Assembly: GCA_027036135.1 (NCBI GenBank)
Contig: JALVSY010000016.1
Coordinates: 62,001-126,000 of the forward strand
Length of the DNA stretch: 64,000 bases
Origin: Pyrodictiaceae archaeon
Lineage (GTDB): Archaea > Thermoproteota > Thermoprotei_A > Sulfolobales > Pyrodictiaceae
Direction of reading: 5' to 3'
Shown here: piece after piece, positions 6,090-61,517 of the stretch
Layout: every line of letters starts with the position of its first letter
Position numbering within the stretch: the stretch's first letter is position 1
The notes under the pieces: model-generated
The model's database searches: none
Seen by the model: only the letters and a program-made list of their open reading frames with translations
Told to the model about the DNA's origin: nothing
Made by a program: the position numbers and the translations under genes

Positions 6090-6809
6090 TTATTGCACTC
6101 CTAGATACGCCTTTATTATCTCCGGGTTCTCTGCGGGCTCCTTGGCGGGGCCTTCCATCCTTATCCTGCCCGTTTCTAGGACGTAGGCATAGTCGGCAAT
6201 GTTTAGCGCGTAGTGCACGTTTTGCTCAACTATGAGTATGGTTAGTTCTTCTTCGTCTCGGATCCTCTTAACGAGATTCATTATCTCGAGAGCAAGCTTT
6301 GGTGCAAGGCCGAGACTGGCCTCGTCTATCATTAGTAGCCTCGGTAGCGCCATGAGCCCGCGCGCTATTGCTAGCATTTGTTGCTCTCCACCGCTTAGCG
6401 TGCCGGCTTTCTGGTTTAGTCGCTCCCGGAGCCTAGGGAAGATGTTGAAGACTCTCTCAAGGCTCTCTTGTATCTTCTGACGAGCGCGCTGATTATAGGC
6501 ACTCATGAGCAGGTTCTCATAGACAGTCATTTGTTGGAAGATATCCCTACCCTCCGGCACCAGTACGATGCCTCTCTCTACTCTGCGGTAACTGGGCAGC
6601 TTTGTTACGTCTTCTCCCGCGAACACTATTCTCCCTTTCCACGCTGGGATTATGCCAACTATGGCTCTCAGAGTAGTGGTTTTACCGGCACCGTTGCTTC
6701 CTATGAGTGCTGTTATGCTTCCCTTCTCAACCTGTATCGATACGTCCCATAGTACTGGTATTTTGCCGTAACCTGTGTGAAGCTTCTCAACACTAAGTAG
6801 TGTCGCCAC
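6090..6809 (-). CDS. livF: Branched-chain amino acid/amide ABC transporter ATPase LivF
   Basis: Second ATPase of a HAAT-family importer, acting at the inner face of the membrane. It has Walker A GSNGAGKTTTLRAI, signature LSGGEQQMLAIARGL, Walker B LLMIDEASLGLAP and the H-loop segment IVEQNVHYAL. 239 residues and an ATG start, 18 bp downstream of livG. It is intact, whereas the permease and binding-protein genes of the same operon are disrupted, so it may have no working partners. Confidence 0.95.
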   Translation of the reverse strand: MATLLSVEKLHTGYGKIPVLWDVSIQVEKGSITALIGSNGAGKTTTLRAIVGIIPAWKGRIVFAGEDVTKLPSYRRVERGIVLVPEGRDIFQQMTVYENLLMSAYNQRARQKIQESLERVFNIFPRLRERLNQKAGTLSGGEQQMLAIARGLMALPRLLMIDEASLGLAPKLALEIMNLVKRIRDEEELTILIVEQNVHYALNIADYAYVLETGRIRMEGPAKEPAENPEIIKAYLGVQ

Positions 6810-6827: not shown

Positions 6828-7592
6828 TCATCCCTGCTTCTTGAATCGTTTCACAAAAGCGAGTGCAAGCTTCGGGTCACCGAGGTACGCTTCTATTACC
6901 CTTGGGTTCGTCGCTATTTCCTCCGGTGTTCCCTCTGCAAGTTTCCTCCCGAGATGCAGTACTACTATTCTATCAGCGATCTCCATCACGGCATGCATTA
7001 CGTGCTCGATCATTACTATTGTGAGGTTGAACTCTTTTTTCGCTAGCTTTACCTTTTCAAGCATATACGATACCTCGGCCGGATTAAGGCCTGCAAAAAC
7101 CTCGTCTAGTAGGAGTAGGCGGGGTTGCCTAGCAAGAGCTCTTGCAAGCTCCAGCCTCTTCTCCAGGGCCACGTTTAGCTGTGCAGCAAGCATGTGTGCA
7201 TGCTTATCAAGCCCAAGGAATTCTAGGATGCGCTTCGCCTCCTCAGCTGCCTCTAAGTCACTTAGTCGCCTATTAGAGAACTTTATCGAGACCAATACGT
7301 TCTCGTATACTGTGAGATCGGGGAATGGCTTCGGTATCTGGAATGTGCGCGCTACTCCGAGCAGTGCTATGCGATGCGGAGGCCACCCCGTCACATCCTT
7401 CCCGAAGATGATTACCCTGCCCTTGTCGGGCTTATAGACACCCGTAATTACGTTGAAGAGCGTAGTCTTGCCAGCACCGTTGGGGCCTATTAGGCCAAGT
7501 ATTTCTCCCTCCTCAACACTCATAGATATTCCTTGGAGCGCTCTTACTCCTCCAAAGCTCTTGTGTATATCCTCAACTTGGAGCACGGGCAC
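6828..7592 (-). CDS. livG: Branched-chain amino acid/amide ABC transporter ATPase LivG
   Basis: First ATPase of the importer. Walker A is GPNGAGKTTLFNVI, the signature region is the LivG-type LNVALEKRLELARALA rather than a canonical LSGGQ, Walker B is LLLLDEVFAGLNP, and the H-loop segment is MIEHVMHAVM. 254 residues. The frame is intact. It lies 24 bp after livM. Confidence 0.95.
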   Translation of the reverse strand: MPVLQVEDIHKSFGGVRALQGISMSVEEGEILGLIGPNGAGKTTLFNVITGVYKPDKGRVIIFGKDVTGWPPHRIALLGVARTFQIPKPFPDLTVYENVLVSIKFSNRRLSDLEAAEEAKRILEFLGLDKHAHMLAAQLNVALEKRLELARALARQPRLLLLDEVFAGLNPAEVSYMLEKVKLAKKEFNLTIVMIEHVMHAVMEIADRIVVLHLGRKLAEGTPEEIATNPRVIEAYLGDPKLALAFVKRFKKQG

Positions 7593-7616: not shown

Positions 7617-8643
7617 TTATTCTAATAGGAAGCGTAGCTTCGTGCTCTTGATTCGTAGCCAGCCAATGATTCCCATGGGTAGTAGCTCTGCTATGACTGC
7701 TATAGTTGCGCCAAATATCACTAGGTGTAGTGATGGGAAGCTCGTCAGGAACGCGGTCTTCACGGCATGGTATATTGCTGTACCAGTTATTGTACCTAGT
7801 ACCGTGCCTGCCCCTCCGAGCATTGTTGCGATTATTGCCTCGATGCTTAACCCTAGGTTGAAGAACTCCCCAGGCAATACTATCATTCGCTTCCAAGCTA
7901 TTATTGCTCCCGCCAAGGCTGGCGTGATGGAGCTGAGCACGAATGCAAGTGTCTTGTACTTCCAGGTATTGACGCCTATTGCCTCAGCAGCGTCCTCGTC
8001 CTCCCTAATGGCTCTTAGTCCTGCGCCGAACTTGCTCCTAGAAACGTATAGGTTGATGAGCAGCCCGAGCGCCACGACGCCTACTAGGAGGAAGTACGCT
8101 ATGTAGTGGACAGCCATTAGGCCATGATACCCGGCTATTGAGTAACCACGGTAATAGGTAGCTGATAGCTGCAAGCCCTCGCTACCACCTAGGTAGTTCA
8201 CGTTAGCCGCTACTACCCGGAACGCCTCAAGCACAGCTATGGTTGCTATCGCGAAGTACGCGCCTCTGAGCCTTAGCACTATGAGGCCTATTAGGTATGC
8301 AGCCCCCCATAGCTGCCAGTACAGCGGCCAGCATCGCTAAGTATATACTAACTCCATGGTAGTACATCAGTACCATGGCAGTGTAGCCGCCTATGCCGTA
8401 GAAGACGGCGTGTCCGAAGCTCACGTACCCAGTGTAGCCGAGTATGACATTAAGCCCAAGTACTATTGAGAACAACACCATGAAGGTGGTTATGGTTTCG
8501 CGGTAGTAGCCTAGGCTTTCAGAATATAATGACCCGGTGCCAAGCCCCAGTAACACAGCTATGATTAGTGCAACGGTTAGGTTGGTTATCAAGCGGCCAC
8601 GCGCTAGTTGACGAAGTATCTGTGCAGCCTCCATTAGCACCAC
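7617..8643 (-). pseudogene. livM: Branched-chain transporter permease LivM, frameshifted
   Basis: Membrane permease of the importer, split between two frames. The N-terminal part (8643 to about 8303) has hydrophobic segments and GLNVILGYTGYVSFGHAVFYGIGGYTAM, the LivM N-terminal signature; it then runs out of frame and stops at 8227. The rest (about 8305 to 7617) continues from AAYLIGLIVLRLRGAYFAIATIA through RAIREDEDAAEAIGVN. The junction is a run of six C on the + strand (8303-8308, six G in the gene). Removing one base restores one continuous protein of about 340 residues. Either a real mutation, a sequencing error, or slippage. The neighbouring genes also carry lesions, favouring decay. 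Confidence 0.85.
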
Positions 8644-8652
8644 CTCTTGGCT

Positions 8653-9501
8653 CTAGAGTTTCGCGAACAACCCAGTCGGCTTTATGACGAGCATTATGAT
8701 AAGCAAGAGGAACGCGACAAGAGGGCCCCAGCTACCACTAGCCACTATGCTCGTTAGCTGCTCAGCTACGCCAAGTATTACACCGTCAACAAGGCTTCCA
8801 AGGGGGTTCCCGAGGCTACCTAGCACAACTATTGTGAACGAGTATAGCTCGTACTTGCTACCAGTCTCTGGGGTAAAGCTATACGCGAGCGCCAATAACG
8901 TTCCCGCTGCGGTCGCAAACAGTACCCCGAGCGCAAACGTCAACATCAATATCTTTGTTACGTTTACCCCCATAAGCGCGGCTGCTTCCTGGTTCATAAC
9001 CACTGCTCTAACAGCCCTACCGAACCACGTCCGGTATATGAGAACGTAGGCACCAATAGCTATTGCTGCGGCTACAATGGCTCCTATAATCTGTATAGTC
9101 ATGATGGGTACGTGCCCGACCTCTATTACGCTAGACTCAACGGGTAGTGTGCGTGCAATACCGCCGAACTTTAGCTCAATAAGCCCGAGGATTATGAGCC
9201 CGAAGCCGAAGGTTGACAAGAGGCTTGCTAGCTCTGGGCCGCCTAGTACGCGGTGAACAAAGAGATAATAGGCAACAACACCGACTATGAAGCCGATGAA
9301 CAGTGTTAGTAGAATAGAAGCCAGTAATGGTACACCATGCATTACTGTCAAGAGATAAGCAAGGTACATGCTCATCGCTATTAGCGCGCCATGGCTTAGA
9401 TTAACGACTCTGAGTATGCCCCAGATAATACTGAGCCCGAGAGCGGCGAGGCCATAGAGGCTCCCAACAACTAGTCAAGCGACAAAGCCTCCCAGTAACA
9501 A
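8653..9501 (-). pseudogene. livH: Branched-chain transporter permease LivH, in-frame stop
   Basis: Second permease of the importer. A start at ATG 9375 gives 240 residues but leaves out the first membrane segment and the conserved block just upstream. In the same frame that block reads LVVGSLYGLAALGLSIIWGI and then LRVVNLSHGALIA, the normal LivH N-terminus. It is cut off by a TGA at 9477-9475, at a place where homologues usually have Gly; GGA to TGA is one base change. Upstream of the stop the frame goes on to a TTG at 9501. No ATG, GTG or TTG lies between the TGA and 9375. The gene is therefore probably truncated. Confidence 0.75.
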
Positions 9502-9506
9502 GCTTC

Positions 9507-9572
9507 CCGAGACCAATCCGCCGACACCTATGCCCTAAACTTAACGATGCATAGTGCATACTGCGGTCTCGT
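9507..9572. repeat. Inverted repeat between livH and livJ
   Basis: CGAGACC at 9507-9513 and GGTCTCG at 9566-9572 are perfect inverted copies within the 147-nt spacer between livJ and livH. The rest of the spacer is AT-rich. It may be a processing or partial termination hairpin that sets different levels of binding protein and permease mRNA; this is inference from position. Confidence 0.3.
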
Positions 9573-9648
9573 GACGTGTTTATTAAGCGTAATTAATGAA
9601 GAGTAAATAAGATACATTATTTTAGGAAAAACCGTTGAGGGGTGGGCG

Positions 9649-11017
9649 CTACTTATTCCAGGGTATCGGGTATATGGGCTTGGCTTGTGCAGCCTCCTCG
9701 GGATATACTATGACCTTTACTAGCTTGCCGTTCTGCTTCTGCCACTGCACTAGCACCATGCTGTGACCTATCTGTAGCCCGTGCTTATCGGCGCCACTGT
9801 AGAACTTTATGTGGCCCCAGAACGTCATTAGGTCGAGGTTGTCTAGTAGCTTTTAGCCTTCTCCGTATCTAGTCCGACGTGCTCTATGACGTACTGGAGT
9901 AGTAGTCCCGCGGCGTAGCCACCGGCTGCGTGGTATCCTGGGAGTTTTCCATACTTGCTCTTATAGGCGTTGACAAACTCCTCGACAGTGGGCCCATACC
10001 ATGGTATGCCTAGCTTCTTCGCGGTCTCAGGGCTGTACTTTACGCCGGGCTCCCATTGGCTGGGGCCAATAACGCCGAGGGCAGCGTCTCCTAGTTCGGC
10101 GAAGGCGGGTTCTGGTGGGGCAACTAGTATAGCGACGTATTTCAGCGTCTTTATCTTTGCCTGGTATAGCTGCTTTACCAGGTTGAAGCCGTCTTGGAAG
10201 TGGCCTCCGCCGAAGATTGCTGTCGCGCCAGAGGACGATATCTTGGCTATGTATGTTGAGAAGTCAGTAGTGCCTGGTGGATAGTGGTCCTCGTAGACTA
10301 TCTTGAAGCCGTGCTCCTCTAGGTACTTCTTCGTGGCAGCAGCTACTGACTTGGCGAATTTGCTGTTCTCGAAGAGCAGTGCTACTTTCTTATTGTTCGG
10401 GTCAAGCTTCATGAGTAGCTCAACGGCCAAGGTCATATACTTACTGGCTGGCGTGTATAGCTGGTAGACGTACTGGTACCCCTTAGTGAATATTGAGTCG
10501 CTAGCAGCACCAGTAGCTATCATAATCTTATGATAACTATCAGTAACGGCGGCAGCAGCGGTCAAGCCACTGCTATATGGGCTAATAAGGTAGTCAACCT
10601 TGTCGCTAGTGATGAGCTTCTGGTACAGCTCCTGCACACGCGCGCTCTTGGACTCGTCGTCGTAGTAGATTAGCTTAACCTTACAAATCCTCCCATCAGG
10701 TAGCTTTATGCCGCCCTTAGAGTTAACTTGCTCAGCCCAGAGCTTGATTCCCTTGAGCTGCTCGGTAGACTCCTCCTGCAATTTACCAGTAAGGGAAGCA
10801 GTGAACCCTATCTTAATCACACAGCCACCAGCACCACTACCAGCTGCGCTAGTCGTGGTTGTTGACTGCGTCGTTATCGTTGCTGGTGGTGTTGTTGCCG
10901 GCGATGTGGCTGTTGCCTTACCACCACCCTTAGACGCATAGTAATAGGCTACACCAGCAATAATAACAATAATGATCACATCACAGCTATAGATATCCAA
11001 ACACCTGCCTTAGACAC
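9649..11017 (-). pseudogene. livJ: Branched-chain transporter substrate-binding protein LivJ, frameshifted
   Basis: Extracellular type 1 periplasmic-binding-fold protein held to the membrane by an N-terminal segment. The central frame (11000 to 9843) shows a hydrophobic stretch, a Thr/Ser-rich linker, CVIKIGFTASLTGKLQEE and the long binding fold. It ends early at a TAG at 9845-9843. The missing C-terminus (LDNLDLMTFWGHIKFYSG and onward to PIPWNK) continues in the next frame to 9649; adding one A to the four-A run (9851-9854 on +) joins them. At the 5' end the central frame has only a TTG start with a poor signal segment. A GTG at 11017 gives SKAGVWISIAV, which needs one added base near 10980 to run into the hydrophobic stretch. 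Confidence 0.8.
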
Positions 11018-11260
11018 CAAGACCTACCACACCCCATGAAAAAGAACTCCTTGTCTATGTAACACCCCACCCCCAGGGGTTTTATCATTAGCCCTACACA
11101 GAATCCCACAAAGCAACATATTCATGAAACGAATTAAGTAACACCCACTAAAGAAAATAAAGACAAGAACAAGACTAGGCCGAGCAAGGATCAAGGAGAC
11201 CCCGTTGTAAAGAAAACCTAATAACCACGACCCAGGGACAAAGAAGAATCCACGGAAACC

Positions 11261-32098: not shown

Positions 32099-32247
32099 TA
32101 GAGCACGCCAGTAACATTAATAGCGCGGCATCTGCTTATGTCTTGTTGCTTGTTATAGATGATTTCTTTTACTTCACTGCATAGAAACGCTAACTATATT
32201 AACTGGCCAGTTGGTCTACATGAATAGACTACTAGGTGCATGGTAAG

Positions 32248-33420
32248 ATGAGTAACGCGGTAATAGAGAGAATAAAGGGCATGAGCGTTGCGTGGTTCTC
32301 GTTCAACCTAGCAACCTCAGCAATAATATTATCCAGCTTTATTTTAGGCTTCATAGATCATATAGGATTGTTAATCGACTTAGCAAAGGTATTAGCAATA
32401 ATAAACTCTGCAGTCTTCGTATTTATAGTTGTACTGTATTCGATACGAGTGATCATTGGATGGCAGAGCTTCAAGGCGCTTCTTCGCAACCCGGTACAGG
32501 GCCCCTTCCTAACAGTAATATCTATAGCAACGATGGTTCTATCTCTTGACTGGAGCCTTGTCCTGCACAACATAATGATAGCCACTGTACTCTTTTATAC
32601 AGGATTAATCCTACATACGATATTGTTCTTAACGGTTATGTACTACCTCGAAAGACATCAAGGTATTGAAATACACTACATGAATCCTAGCTGGTACATG
32701 CCAGCCGTAGGCAACGTGCTAGCACCATTCGTTGGCATGGTGCTTGTGGCAAAGGGTATACCGGTTCCCAGAAGCCTCCTCGGAATCTATCTTGGAACAG
32801 GAACCATAATGTGGCTTGCGTTGTTCGCTATATGGCTATACAGAGCAATATTCTATTCCCCGCAGCCAGCAAGACTTATGGCAACGATGTGGATAAACCT
32901 GGCGCCACCAGCTGTAATACCATTGTCCTATGAAGCCCTGCTGGGGTTTACCCCAAGGGTTTACCGAGAACTCTTTAGAGAAGCGATGAAGAGTCCGGTA
33001 AGCCCCTTAGCTGTTAAGCTACTTATCGATATGTATGACTTGTTCTATTACACGTTCTGGGGCACGGCAGGTTTTCTCTTCGCCCTAGTAATGATATTGA
33101 CAATAGGGTATTTCGCAAGGAAAGAAATAGAGTTCGCTGAAAGTTGGTGGGCGTTCACATTCCCTCTAGCCGCGTACGTAATATCTACTGTCCATCTCTA
33201 TCTGCATCATCCTAGCGAGCACTGGTTGCTATACTATGCATGGTTCCTCTATATACTAACATGGATATCCTATATAGTGACGACGAGTCTGAGCATATAC
33301 TACGGATACGAAGAGACGGTAAAGAAGGTACCTAAGGAGAGGCTACCGCCGGCTGCAAGACCTTTATCAGAGGATCTAACCAAAGAGAATAGCAAGAAAA
33401 ATGGTAAGTATAAGGAGTAA
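32248..33420 (+). CDS. TDT/SLAC1 family transporter (C4-dicarboxylate/malic acid type)
   Basis: Integral membrane protein with about ten hydrophobic segments, resembling the tellurite-resistance/dicarboxylate transporter (TDT) family that includes yeast Mae1 and plant SLAC1. Features include NLATSAIILSSFILGF in helix 1, the middle block NPSWYMPAVGNVLAPFVGMV, and a final helix pair around FPLAAYVIST. ATG 32248 is preferred to GTG 32236. A charged tail of about 35 residues ends the protein. It is 90 bp upstream of malic enzyme on the same strand, which supports malate or a related dicarboxylate as cargo. Substrate and direction are inference. Confidence 0.75.
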   Translation: MSNAVIERIKGMSVAWFSFNLATSAIILSSFILGFIDHIGLLIDLAKVLAIINSAVFVFIVVLYSIRVIIGWQSFKALLRNPVQGPFLTVISIATMVLSLDWSLVLHNIMIATVLFYTGLILHTILFLTVMYYLERHQGIEIHYMNPSWYMPAVGNVLAPFVGMVLVAKGIPVPRSLLGIYLGTGTIMWLALFAIWLYRAIFYSPQPARLMATMWINLAPPAVIPLSYEALLGFTPRVYRELFREAMKSPVSPLAVKLLIDMYDLFYYTFWGTAGFLFALVMILTIGYFARKEIEFAESWWAFTFPLAAYVISTVHLYLHHPSEHWLLYYAWFLYILTWISYIVTTSLSIYYGYEETVKKVPKERLPPAARPLSEDLTKENSKKNGKYKE

Positions 33421-48720: not shown

Positions 48721-50673
48721 TTAGCTGTAGTGTGTCGATGTTATCATCTTCTTTACAGTCTTGATTGTTCTCCCGTTCTTAGTGAATGTTATGTGTGCTG
48801 CACATGCTAGACATGGGTCGAAGCTCCTTATTGCTCTGACATAGTCTAGTCCTGTCCAGTTCTTGGGGTTCGTCTCCTCGGTTATGTAGGTGTTTACTGC
48901 GCTTTCCTCAAACGGGCTTCTACCATAGATATCGTAGGGACTTACATTACCAGTGGTTGGTGCATGTATCTGTATATTGAGTACTTTGCCGCTGCGTTGT
49001 ACCATCCAGTGCCTCACGGTTCCTCTTGGTGCCTCGATGAAGCCTACGCCGAATGTTATCCTGTTCGGCTTCTTCCAGGGCCTGCTAGCGTACTTCTTGC
49101 CCTTAGCTATGTACTCTTGTGCCTTTGTGATGTTGTTCCATGCCCCGACGACGTCTATCATCATGTTAAATGCCCTGGCCCATAGCCTATATATGGTAGA
49201 GCTATAGTCTGGTACTTTCCACTCGAAGCTCATCTCCTCGCAGACGCTCCCCGGTAGCTCATCGGTGCATGCCCGTGGTAGTGTTACCTTTAGTACTCCG
49301 TTGCCATTGCTCTTGAAGAGCCCTAGGTAGTCGCTTGCTACCTGCATGCTTGTTACCTTGAGCCTAGCGTATGGCCCTACCTCGAACGGTGTTATAGTGC
49401 CATCCTTCCATACTAGCCTGACGTGTGTCGCCCAGCTGTACTTGCCGTCCCAGTTCCTTGCTGTCGGGTTCGGTATTGTCACTTTTAGCCATGGGTGGAA
49501 TACTGGTGCGTTAATAGTCTTTCCGAGGATGTCGCTTGTATATTTTGTCCACTTGCCCCAGTTCAGTGTATTGCCTAGCGGGTCCTTGAACCCCATCTTC
49601 TCTAGCTCGCCGTACCATGGTAGCTCGTGCACTTTGTCTGCCCAGTCCTTGTAGAACGCGTGCTGTACATGCTCGAAGATGCTGACCTGGTACTCTGCAT
49701 AGCTATCGGTCACTAGTTTGCCGCGGAGCACGACACCAGGCTTAATTATTCTCTTCCTAGCGGCCTTGTCGATTCCCTTATAGAACTCCTCCCACTCTAC
49801 ATAGCACTCCTTGTCCCAGGCACCGCAGCCACCTATGCTCGCATACTCCTCTGGGTCATCGAATATACCGCCACTACCAATAGCGCCTACCGTTGACTTC
49901 GCAGGGTTCGGGTTATAGCTCATACCGTTCTCTGCATAGTTGTGCTTGTTGACGTAGAAGTCGAAGAGATCCCAGAGCACCGTGTACACGAACTTAGCCC
50001 ATGCCGTTAGCTTTACTAGGCGGAACATGTAACCCATCAGTATGTACTCGTGGTTCGTCAAGTCAGTGGCTACACCGCCTGGTACTAGTGTTGATGGGTG
50101 ACTATGTCTACCATATATTAGTACGCCTGCTTCTCGCGCAATTCTCTGGAACGTTACTGCTAGTTGCCATAGCTTACCAGTTATCGGTGTCAAGGCATTC
50201 ATTATATCAGCTATTGTTGTGAAGCCATGTATGTCGCGGTGCTCGGCAAGAGTCTTCTTAGCATCCTCGTAGACACTCTTAGTCATTAGAGCTACTACTG
50301 GGCTGCTGTAGTCCGGGCCCTCCAGCATTAGCAGTATTATAGTGTGGTCGTAGACATGATCCGTCACGGCATAGGCCATGTTTCTTAGAGCTACACCTAG
50401 CGGTGTCGGCGAGACACCATATACCATGTCCGCGGTTATTACGTCTGCGTTGGCGTGGCTTGCTCCGCAGACTCCGCAGACACGGCTAGTTACGTGCGGC
50501 AAGTCCTCCGGCGGCCTACCTAGCCCAAATACCTCGAAGCCGCGGAACATTGTAACGAAGCTCCTAACACTACTTGGTATTGCTCTCCTCTTATCGGTAT
50601 CAACTATTACTCGTAGACCTAGATGGCCCTCGATACGCGTTATGGGGTCTATTATCATCTTGCGCTGTACCAT
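48721..50673 (-). CDS. [NiFe] hydrogenase large subunit
   Basis: Catalytic subunit with the Ni-Fe(CN)2CO site. N-terminal motif ITRIEGHLGLRV and first Cys pair in RVCGVCGASHANAD; second Cys pair in DPCLACAAH, followed by a 23-residue C-terminal tail that the maturation protease should remove after the His. 650 residues, group 1 (uptake, membrane-associated) type. It lies downstream of the cytochrome b gene and the small subunit in the same operon. Confidence 0.97.
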   Translation of the reverse strand: MVQRKMIIDPITRIEGHLGLRVIVDTDKRRAIPSSVRSFVTMFRGFEVFGLGRPPEDLPHVTSRVCGVCGASHANADVITADMVYGVSPTPLGVALRNMAYAVTDHVYDHTIILLMLEGPDYSSPVVALMTKSVYEDAKKTLAEHRDIHGFTTIADIMNALTPITGKLWQLAVTFQRIAREAGVLIYGRHSHPSTLVPGGVATDLTNHEYILMGYMFRLVKLTAWAKFVYTVLWDLFDFYVNKHNYAENGMSYNPNPAKSTVGAIGSGGIFDDPEEYASIGGCGAWDKECYVEWEEFYKGIDKAARKRIIKPGVVLRGKLVTDSYAEYQVSIFEHVQHAFYKDWADKVHELPWYGELEKMGFKDPLGNTLNWGKWTKYTSDILGKTINAPVFHPWLKVTIPNPTARNWDGKYSWATHVRLVWKDGTITPFEVGPYARLKVTSMQVASDYLGLFKSNGNGVLKVTLPRACTDELPGSVCEEMSFEWKVPDYSSTIYRLWARAFNMMIDVVGAWNNITKAQEYIAKGKKYASRPWKKPNRITFGVGFIEAPRGTVRHWMVQRSGKVLNIQIHAPTTGNVSPYDIYGRSPFEESAVNTYITEETNPKNWTGLDYVRAIRSFDPCLACAAHITFTKNGRTIKTVKKMITSTHYS

Positions 50674-50799
50674 ACCTACTCACCCACCCATAAACCTCCT
50701 TGTCTCTGCAAACATCACCTATTTATACATAACTATGTACATGAAATCCGGAGTATGTAACTAAATAAATACGTACATTATCTAAAAAACTATTATGGA

Positions 50800-51843
50800 T
50801 CAAGTCTTTGTCTCCTCCTTTACAACACCCTTTTTGACGAGGTACTCGTACCAAGCTGGGTGTTCCTCCTTGATGCGGGCAAGCGGCATCTTGCCATGTA
50901 TGTATGTTGGATCCATTGGGAACGTTGATGGGTTCAGATGCACATAGACTATGTGTACCATTAGTATCCACGAGATTGCTAGTACAGCTTCCTTGACATG
51001 CGTTATCCAGAATACTCCATTAAGTACCTGGGGGCCCCATATGCTCATTATTGCGCCTGGTATGCCTAGTACTGCCATACCCCAGTAGACGCCCCAGTAC
51101 TCGAACATCTCCTCACAATCATACTTGTGAATCTTCGGCATCTTGCCGAGCTTTGGATGAATAGTGTACAGCAATCTGTTAATAAGATCCTTGAAGAACT
51201 GTAGCGTGAATATTCTCAGTATAGGCCACTTGTCGAGCATGCTTTCTCTTCTGGACGGCGAGAATAGATCCATGAAGAACCTTGTTGTGTAGTAGCCGAA
51301 GTGTAGCAGTACTATTACTCCCATAAGCCACCCTGATATCACGTGTATCTTTACGTAGAGATCTCTGCTTACGTACAGCATGTGCCAATATGGGTTATTA
51401 GCAAGATACATCTCGAACCCGGTAAAGGCACATAGTATGAACGTTATGATTACCCAGATGTGCTGTATTCTCTGCCATAGCGAGAATCTTAGTACCCATA
51501 TATCACGCTTGCCTTCCTCGCTCTTGTAGTAGAGTCTCCACTTCTTTTGCTCTCGTGCTCGTATAGCAAAGTTGCCCAGGCTCCACCATGTACCAAAGAA
51601 CCCAAGTAGTATTATCAGTATGTCGAAGGCGACACTTAGGAAGTCACGCCACCATAAAGTACTCTTTAGATTCATCTCTGATAAGAGCTTGAAGAACTGG
51701 TGAAGGCCGCCTTCTGCCTCGAAGGGCTTCCAGCCTAGGAAGTATATTATTGTCCAGGTGCCGCCAACGAATATGGTAACTAGTATCCAATCGGCTATCA
51801 GATACGCCGTCCACAGACGCTTAGTAGTTGTGGTCGCGCTCAT
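50800..51843 (-). CDS. Cytochrome b subunit of the hydrogenase (Isp1/HyaC-like)
   Basis: 347 residues with about five hydrophobic segments. Possible haem ligands are His in IQHIWVIITFILCAFTGFEM, KIHVISGWLMGVIVLLHFG, and WILMVHIVYVHLNP. It should carry electrons from the small subunit to the quinone pool. It is placed between small and large subunit genes, the order known for Isp1 in Isp-type hydrogenases; an Isp2 (HdrD-like) gene is not present here. Confidence 0.85.
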   Translation of the reverse strand: MSATTTTKRLWTAYLIADWILVTIFVGGTWTIIYFLGWKPFEAEGGLHQFFKLLSEMNLKSTLWWRDFLSVAFDILIILLGFFGTWWSLGNFAIRAREQKKWRLYYKSEEGKRDIWVLRFSLWQRIQHIWVIITFILCAFTGFEMYLANNPYWHMLYVSRDLYVKIHVISGWLMGVIVLLHFGYYTTRFFMDLFSPSRRESMLDKWPILRIFTLQFFKDLINRLLYTIHPKLGKMPKIHKYDCEEMFEYWGVYWGMAVLGIPGAIMSIWGPQVLNGVFWITHVKEAVLAISWILMVHIVYVHLNPSTFPMDPTYIHGKMPLARIKEEHPAWYEYLVKKGVVKEETKT

Positions 51844-51863
51844 CTTATCACCCTTACCTAGTT

Positions 51864-53297
51864 TTATGCTTGAGCCTTGCTACGCAGATGAGCCCATATT
51901 CCGGCAATAACGCCTATAGTTATGAGCGAGGCTGCTCCTATCTCTACGTCGCGCTTTAGCTCCTCCACACTTGCACCAACGTATGGTAGCTTCTGGTAGA
52001 AGGGCTCAAAGGAGTCAGTGAATCCGGGCTCTGTACAGCCTATACAGACGCCTCCAGTCCTTGTTGGCCCGCCTACACCGTTCACCCATCCAACCTTGTT
52101 CCATGGGCAGTGGCTTATTGGGCCCTTGCAACCGACCGCGTAGAGACACTGTGCCGTGTTCTCGCCAGGATACTTCCTGAAGTCTCCGGCAGCATACCAT
52201 GCTGCTCTCGGGCACTGCTGGTGTGTTGTCTTGCCGAAAATGTACTTGGGTCTCCAGTACTGGTCTAGCTCTGGTAGGGGTAGCTTACCTAGAGCCCATA
52301 GTATCAGGTTGGCTATTACTCTTAGCTGGCCGTTACCGTTAGCCGGGCATCCCGGAACCGCTACTGCTGGGCGGCAATCGCTCCTTATCTCGCCTGGTGC
52401 TAGCTTGCAGCCTCCGTAGACGAATTTGCGGAAGGGAGCCGCTTCTGGCACTAGGTCTACGAAGCCCTTGAAGTGCCTCCTCTTGTCGGGGAAGAAGCCG
52501 ACCGCACCGGTTGGGCTGTAGCTCCAGCCCTTGCTGCCCCACTTCTCAAACAAGTCGTAACCCATCTTCTTCATAAAGTCTTTTTCAATAACCCTATCAG
52601 CTATTAGGCCACCATAGCAAGCACAATTACCAACAGATATTACTGCTACAGCGTTCTTCAAGAGTCTCCTTATCCACTCAGCACAGCTAATGGGTTTCCC
52701 GTTCTCCTCTCCTATGTAGCAGAAGTAGTCAACTGAGTCGGGTACATTGGTTACTCCGTGCTCTCTTAGTATCTTGCTATCAACTGATATACTTCCCTCG
52801 ATTACGAGTACGTATGGGTTAAGCTTGCCAGCTTCAGCCATTTCTAGTATATCTATCGGACTGGTTAGGAGTATGCCGGGGTTGTAGCCGAGTTTTAGGA
52901 AGGTTTCGAGAGTCTTCCTTAGCGGGTCATTTTGCGGCAGGCTCTGGACGAATTTTTGTAGCTGTTCAGGGCTCATCTTTAGGAACTGTTCTGCATAGCT
53001 GGGTGTCTTTTCACCCCAGCTGAGCATCACCGTCTCATGGTATACTAGCTTAACGGTGCCAGGACCAACTACGGAACTCATACCTCCTAGAATAGCTACA
53101 AGATCCGGGTCGGTTGCCTGTATTAGTGCGGTGGTATTGCCGGCGCAGTCCTGTGCCTCGAACCATATTATGTTAATGCTGCCCTTCTTGACGGCATCCA
53201 TTGCTGCCTTTACTACCTTGCCCCAGTCGAGAGTAGCGAAGAACGCCGTTGTGCCTGCTAGTTTTAGGAATTCTCTCCTAGAGAGTTTGAGACTCAT
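51864..53297 (-). CDS. [NiFe] hydrogenase small subunit with Tat signal
   Basis: Electron-transfer subunit with Fe-S clusters. ATG 53297 gives a Tat signal (SRREFLKLAG) at the N-terminus; an upstream start at 53453 adds an unrelated leader. The proximal site begins WFEAQDCAGNTTAL, with Asn in place of the usual second Cys of CxxC; VGNCACYGG and VPGCPANGNG supply others. Distal and medial sites are HQQCPRAAWYAAGDF, CLYAVGCKGPISHCPWN and GGVCIGCTEPGF. A C-terminal membrane helix (ASLITIGVIAGIWAHL) anchors it on the outer face. 477 residues. Confidence 0.96.
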   Translation of the reverse strand: MSLKLSRREFLKLAGTTAFFATLDWGKVVKAAMDAVKKGSINIIWFEAQDCAGNTTALIQATDPDLVAILGGMSSVVGPGTVKLVYHETVMLSWGEKTPSYAEQFLKMSPEQLQKFVQSLPQNDPLRKTLETFLKLGYNPGILLTSPIDILEMAEAGKLNPYVLVIEGSISVDSKILREHGVTNVPDSVDYFCYIGEENGKPISCAEWIRRLLKNAVAVISVGNCACYGGLIADRVIEKDFMKKMGYDLFEKWGSKGWSYSPTGAVGFFPDKRRHFKGFVDLVPEAAPFRKFVYGGCKLAPGEIRSDCRPAVAVPGCPANGNGQLRVIANLILWALGKLPLPELDQYWRPKYIFGKTTHQQCPRAAWYAAGDFRKYPGENTAQCLYAVGCKGPISHCPWNKVGWVNGVGGPTRTGGVCIGCTEPGFTDSFEPFYQKLPYVGASVEELKRDVEIGAASLITIGVIAGIWAHLRSKAQA

Positions 53298-53697
53298 CCT
53301 GGTGCACCCCGCATGGAGAGATAGTGCACATTGTGGCGGTCTACTTGTATTTCTTTTGTACACCCTAACATTCTCGGTAGATAATTGCTTACGTGACACG
53401 GTTAAAAACCTATCTACTGGAAACGAAAAGATTCTAATACAGTTCTTTAACACTGTAAAAAAGTGCCGTATCTACATGGATTCTTATTACGATTCTACGA
53501 CCTTTCACGCCGTTTAAATAAAAGTTAATCAAATGCTTTCTTATACTTCATTTTTATTATATATATGCATAATTTTTATTTAAGATATTTACGAAAATAT
53601 ATAAATAAAGGGCTTAGCTCAAATAAATCATCGAAACCATGTACTAAATACCTGTATATACCTCGGAGCCCAATATAAGACATTAATACCGTGGAGA
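53298..53697. promoter_or_regulatory. AT-rich divergent promoter region of the hydrogenase operon
   Basis: About 400 bases without a supportable gene. On the minus strand GGTTTTTAACCG (53398-53409) is a palindromic TATA-like candidate about 100 bp ahead of the small-subunit start. The part from 53520 to 53610 is strongly AT-rich, with runs such as ATTTTTATTATATATATG, and faces both the small-subunit gene and the rightward unknown gene. The palindrome could be an operator. Confidence 0.4.
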
Positions 53698-60578: not shown

Positions 60579-61517
60579 CTATACTTTTACACTCACTTGC
60601 AGAGGCTCTGTTGTAAGCCTTAACGAATAGAAACGCCTATCTAGGATGCCTGCTAGGCGCTTCATTATTGCCTGCTTATTCTCCATCCCCGGTACCATGA
60701 TAAGAACCCTTTTTTTCAGATACCATCCCCGAAGAGCGCCCTCCTCGACTAACCGATCAAGAATACCTGCTAGCTTATCTTCGGCCATCCCGGTATCTAC
60801 GCTAAAGCCGCGGGCCTCCTGCAGAAAAGCCTCGAGCCCCGGCCTGGATAGAAGCCGTGCAAGTCTGGGCGATGCAGCCTCGTAGAGCCTCTTCCCGAGA
60901 ACCTTATGCATTTCTCTAGTCTCCATGGAGCCTAGAACTGCTGCGAGGATCTCTAAGCGTGGCACGGGGTAGCTCTCTACACTTGCTATCCCAGGCCCGC
61001 CGGGCGCCACGCGTATCTCTAGACCACGTCCATGGAGCATTGCTACTACGTCTCCTAGACCTGTCTCGGCCCTAATTTCGGCCTCATGCGCGATACTAGC
61101 AGACTCTAGTAGGCCCATTCCGCTGAGAAGACCGGCGCCAAGGGCTATGCCGAGGGCTATGCCAGCGGAGACAGCGAAACCGGCGCCGAGTGGGACCGGG
61201 GAGGATATGCGTATATGCGCGGGCGTAGCGCTGTTCATTAGGTTAAGGGTTTCAGAGGCTATGCTCGGCAAGCCGCTTAGCTGCTTACCCTCCACGGTTA
61301 TGTCGATGCGCCACTCCTTTGCCGGTACAGCCTCTACCTCGATGCCCGGCTCCATTAATAACCCGGCACCCAGGCTACCCGATAGAAGCGGACTATGCCT
61401 CCAGACTGGTATCCAGAGCCCCGTAACGTGCAACGGGATCCATAGCTTGACGCGCTTTACCAAGCAGTATTCCCGGAATACGTTATCCATCCTCCCAAAA
61501 GAATTATTGTTAATCAT
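60579..61517 (-). CDS. Pantoate kinase (archaeal GHMP kinase)
   Basis: GHMP-superfamily kinase of the archaeal CoA pathway, phosphorylating pantoate. The ATP loop is SSPVPLGAGFAVSAGIALGI; early motif PLHVTGLWIPVW and GLGDVVAMLHGRGLEIRV are family-like. 312 residues from ATG 61517. A TTG at the LVKRVKLWIPLHVTG position would remove an 18-residue non-homologous leader. Divergent from coaBC, the other CoA gene here. Confidence 0.85.
   Translation of the reverse strand: MINNNSFGRMDNVFREYCLVKRVKLWIPLHVTGLWIPVWRHSPLLSGSLGAGLLMEPGIEVEAVPAKEWRIDITVEGKQLSGLPSIASETLNLMNSATPAHIRISSPVPLGAGFAVSAGIALGIALGAGLLSGMGLLESASIAHEAEIRAETGLGDVVAMLHGRGLEIRVAPGGPGIASVESYPVPRLEILAAVLGSMETREMHKVLGKRLYEAASPRLARLLSRPGLEAFLQEARGFSVDTGMAEDKLAGILDRLVEEGALRGWYLKKRVLIMVPGMENKQAIMKRLAGILDRRFYSLRLTTEPLQVSVKV

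Follow-up and report, generated by a model that had tools for sequence, protein, structure and literature searches.

Probable recent pseudogenisation of a Liv-type ABC importer operon in a Pyrodictiaceae archaeon

A stretch of 64,000 nucleotides (the window) on contig C16 of a Pyrodictiaceae genome (G000; 2.2 Mb, 99.6 % complete) carries a five-gene operon in which three genes appear to be broken. Does this reflect the genuine decay of one importer or a faulty piece of assembly and, if the decay is genuine, when did it begin and what made the importer dispensable? The initial annotation of this DNA had reported four disruptions in livM, livH and livJ, with livF and livG open and nearly everything else in the window clean, and had read them as the decay of a single importer that lost its outer parts before its ATPases.

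The operon is transcribed from the minus strand in the order livJ-livH-livM-livG-livF (Table 1). Its sequence places it securely, but at family level only, among the Liv-type (HAAT, hydrophobic amino-acid uptake) ABC importers, with which it shares the same five parts and the matching Pfam domains, here combined in one operon. PF00005 is found in both LivF and LivG, and PF12399 in the tail of LivG. PF02653 (BPD_transp_2) scores above the cut-off in livH and in both livM fragments and is intact in the nearest relative, while PF13458 (periplasmic-binding-protein type I) matches the interrupted livJ ORF at 2.8e-53 and the intact protein of that relative at 9.1e-60. In contrast to the family, the substrate is not secure, since the best NCBIfam matches on the operon mix Liv and urea Urt models, all below the equivalog cut-offs. 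As the proteins score below the cut-offs for both the E. coli Liv and the Urt systems, the substrate may be branched-chain amino acids, other amino acids or a urea-like compound. What distinguishes the window operon from other Liv-type importers is that three of its five genes are disrupted.

Table 1. Genes of the Liv-type operon and positions of the four lesions (window coordinates)
Feature	Position	Strand	Description
livF	6090-6809	(-)	Liv-type ABC ATPase, open frame, catalytic motifs present
livG	6828-7592	(-)	Liv-type ABC ATPase, BCA_ABC_TP_C tail, open frame
livM	7617-8643	(-)	permease pseudogene; frameshift splits gene
livH	8653-9516	(-)	permease pseudogene; probable conserved start is an in-frame TTG near 9516
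livJ	9649-11020	(-)	substrate-binding protein pseudogene, Peripla_BP_6; two frameshifts
Lesion 1 (livM)	8303-8308	(-) gene	six C on the + strand, five in the sister genome; one-base gain
Lesion 2 (livH)	9475-9477	(-)	in-frame TGA, C-to-A change; Gly in the sister genome, G004 and G013
Lesion 3 (livJ)	9852-9853	(-)	one-base loss; removes the last ~67 LivJ residues
Lesion 4 (livJ)	10975-10984	(-)	5-bp tandem duplication, ATCAC ATCAC on the + strand, signal-anchor region

The lesions, spread over livM, livH and livJ, are of mixed types (a nonsense substitution, a 5-bp tandem duplication and two single-base indels), which disfavours homopolymer error as their only source. The livM frameshift yields two ORFs, 8227-8643 and 7617-8279, and LivM is predicted to end after 138 residues, compared to 341 for the sister protein. 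LivH would terminate at the nonsense codon, about 14 codons past its probable TTG start. In livJ, the duplication (ATCAC at 10975-10979 repeated at 10980-10984) shifts the frame, also about 14 codons past the probable start, and LivJ would end there; the internal LivJ ORF is still without its last ~67 residues. As judged from the predicted products, the lesions would abolish transport, leaving neither a complete binding protein nor a complete permease pair. Upstream of livH, ATA stands at 9529-9531 in place of an ATG; this was considered as a fifth lesion but dropped, the conserved start being more likely the in-frame TTG that is common to the sister genome and G004.

The relatives used for comparison are the sister genome, i.e., the nearest relative (G001, the MAG "Pyrodictiaceae archaeon isolate A1_metabat1_scaf2bin.004", which is incomplete), the complete relative G004 and the more distant G013 ("Pyrodictium sp. 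isolate DIMAG01"). The sister contig G001:C25 is syntenic and aligns over the operon at ~91 % DNA identity. All five liv frames are open in G001, G004 and G013. The sister-genome comparison that had been proposed with the initial annotation confirmed the four lesions base by base, none of them being present in any of the three relatives. Since the sister and two further relatives have open frames, the lesions arose in the lineage of the window.

How unusual such a cluster is on this contig was judged from a census in which 228 orthologous genes (69,733 aa) from G004 were compared with ~400 kb of C16, window included. Only two other real internal frameshifts were found, both in the ~340 kb of contig outside the window, and the lesion cluster is thus not due to chance. 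One affects a PAC2-family gene (C16:35879-36642), which has lost one base in a C-rich stretch and is open in G001 and G004; the other affects a conserved gene whose product has cysteine motifs (CNFYCPWC; C16:260532-260875), where one base is lost beside a G run and the frame is open in G004. Both single-base losses may be assembly errors. The background, 2 lesions in the ~206 kb of coding sequence that was compared, predicts ~0.03 lesions in 3.3 kb. The four observed in ~3.3 kb have a Poisson probability of ~4e-8 (~4e-6 at the upper-bound rate) before correction for picking the cluster; selection of the worst spot costs a factor of ~60 and leaves it significant. A census with G001 proteins agrees with that based on G004. 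Among the other window genes with an ortholog in G001 or G004, no convincing internal lesion was found. Further stop calls in the window are explained by N-termini extended too far upstream, by ragged gene ends or by antisense ORFs judged spurious; two more, at codon 36 in L114_18862 and codon 14 in L110_-1, were not counted, as they lie upstream of or at the likely starts. The description of one broken gene set in an otherwise nearly clean window is therefore correct.

The timing of the decay is a different matter. Relative to the sister, dN/dS is 0.030 for livG, 0.034 for livM and 0.041 for livH, values that imply strong purifying selection on the operon for nearly all the time since the two lineages split. 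They do not support the idea of a long decay; the loss would be very recent. A relaxation of selection in the permease genes does not show in these absolute ratios, yet a modest excess of replacements can be seen on the window branch. When polarised with G004, replacements on the window and sister branches are 23:6 in the liv genes versus 374:272 in 88 control genes (one-sided p=0.015). With all 90 controls the two-sided value is p=0.05, and the test is weak, p varying from 0.015 to 0.05 with the choice of controls and sidedness. Among randomly drawn five-gene sets, 2.2 % reach the liv ratio; five genes that lie next to each other never do (0 of 75 sets). livM, livH and livJ alone give 14:5, which is not significant, and the intact ATPase genes livF and livG give 9:1 (p~0.04). 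A recount with two outgroups on another alignment gives 30:8 for the operon without the nonsense change and 12:1 for livF and livG, livF having seven replacements on the window branch and none on that of the sister. The changes in LivF include G89D, P92Q, G188E and L225P; its catalytic motifs are untouched. The proposal that the outer parts were lost before the ATPases is not supported by this result, since livF and livG share the branch excess, and the time elapsed may simply have been too short for their frames to break.

In a rough hand check, the excess amounts to ~15 replacements over ~8 expected, to be compared with ~640 if the whole branch had been neutral, i.e., ~2–4 % of the branch. 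Because dN/dS is still low and the branch excess only modest, the onset of decay appears to be late and would fall roughly within the last 2–4 % of the window's branch. Such an interval could plausibly yield, over 3.3 kb, about one nonsense mutation and a small number of indels.

A few other genes in the window are also divergent. In the NiFe hydrogenase operon (48721-53453), replacements on the window branch are in strong excess for the large subunit (24:6), the cytochrome b-like subunit (44:17) and the small subunit (25:8). Its cytochrome b-like protein is 77 % identical to that of the sister, while sister and G004 are 86 % identical; gene exchange or changed selection are possible causes. 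A SLAC1-family anion channel gene (32236-33420) and a GHMP-kinase-family gene (60579-61517) have 76–78 % identity to the sister, and most of their neighbours 90–98 %.

Clustered and confined to one lineage, the liv lesions are best read as the decay of one importer, as initially supposed, and we consider it probable that they represent recent, ordinary pseudogenisation of a single Liv-type operon that became dispensable late in the lineage of this archaeon of the Pyrodictium group. A sequencing or assembly error, concentrated where coverage or polishing was poor and hiding an intact operon, would account for the fact that dN/dS in livM, livH and livG is as low as in functional genes. Moreover, the two single-base losses in conserved genes elsewhere on C16 indicate that the assembly probably contains some indel errors; the two liv lesions that are single-base indels resemble those losses at G/C-rich spots, and either may individually be an error. 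This reading is nevertheless unlikely in view of the very small number of such lesions expected in 3.3 kb. In addition, errors seldom take the form of a Gly-to-stop substitution or of a 5-bp tandem duplication that is exact, and the branch excess of replacements in the liv genes extends to the intact livF and livG.

Continued function of the genes, whether through recoding (frameshift slippage or readthrough) or through internal restart, is highly improbable. On the coding strand the livM break does fall within a run of G, and downstream internal ORFs exist in livH (ATG at 9375) and livJ (TTG ORF 9843-11000). However, four separate events of different kinds would be required, no site is common to the relatives, whose frames are open, and restart would deprive LivH of its first membrane segments and still leave LivJ without its C-terminus. 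Equally hard to credit is a selective loss of the transport function in which the LivF and LivG ATPases are kept to serve other permeases. Both genes are intact and G000 has three other permease pairs, but the two other Liv-type operons possess their own ATPase pairs, the third permease pair has a fused ATPase, and livF and livG display excess replacements rather than extra constraint.

If the operon is indeed undergoing pseudogenisation, what made it dispensable? The host's own biosynthesis had been invoked, with reference to the Arg and Thr genes next door. Genes for carbamoyl-phosphate synthase, argininosuccinate synthase, aspartate kinase and threonine synthase do adjoin the operon, but they do not replace the uptake of Leu, Ile and Val. 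Furthermore, ketol-acid reductoisomerase (PF01450) was not found in G000 or in its four genus-mates G001–G004, while PF01450 is present in 14 of 14 control genomes and in two genomes from outside the genus but within the family. Judging from this absence, G000 probably needs external branched-chain amino acids, and the pattern suggests branched-chain auxotrophy across the genus (G000–G004).

Redundancy seems a better explanation. G000 has two other intact Liv-type operons, on C7 (~1.094-1.101 Mb) and C30 (~22-27 kb), each comprising one binding protein together with a pair of permeases and a pair of ATPases; it also has a third PF02653 permease pair, adjoined by a fused double ATPase. PF13458 binding proteins number seven in G004, four in the incomplete G001, and two intact ones plus the broken LivJ in G000. 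The C7 operon also holds an AMP-binding (acyl-CoA synthetase-like) gene (L048, 9966-11606) between its permease and LivG-like genes, and its importer may carry a different, non-amino-acid substrate, so that redundancy is not proven. The idea of a shared ATPase for the C7 operon was abandoned as a second ATPase gene is present there. Redundancy with other importers would have relaxed selection on the whole of livJ-livH-livM-livG-livF, the disruptions in livM, livH and livJ would have followed, and livF and livG would remain open only because the decay is young. More speculatively, and with considerable doubt, a lineage lacking PF01450, and hence probably reliant on external branched-chain amino acids, might be in the process of shrinking its set of Liv-type importers and have been caught within the first few percent of a branch since one operon was lost, with the ATPase genes already relaxing while their frames are still open.

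Lineage-specific pseudogenisation of redundant nutrient importers is known in prokaryotes. The present case shares with it the clustering of disabling mutations in one operon, the open frames in relatives and the retention of paralogous systems, and is distinctive only in that it has been caught early, with low dN/dS persisting, and in a hyperthermophilic archaeon. In the literature, titles and abstracts yielded nothing directly relevant on liv pseudogenes or on branched-chain transport in Pyrodictium. The locus provides a small, clean example of how pseudogenisation starts in a hyperthermophilic archaeon and leaves the general picture unchanged. Annotators should not take LivM, LivH and LivJ of this strain to be functional, and its other Liv-type importers are the ones on which metabolic models should be based.
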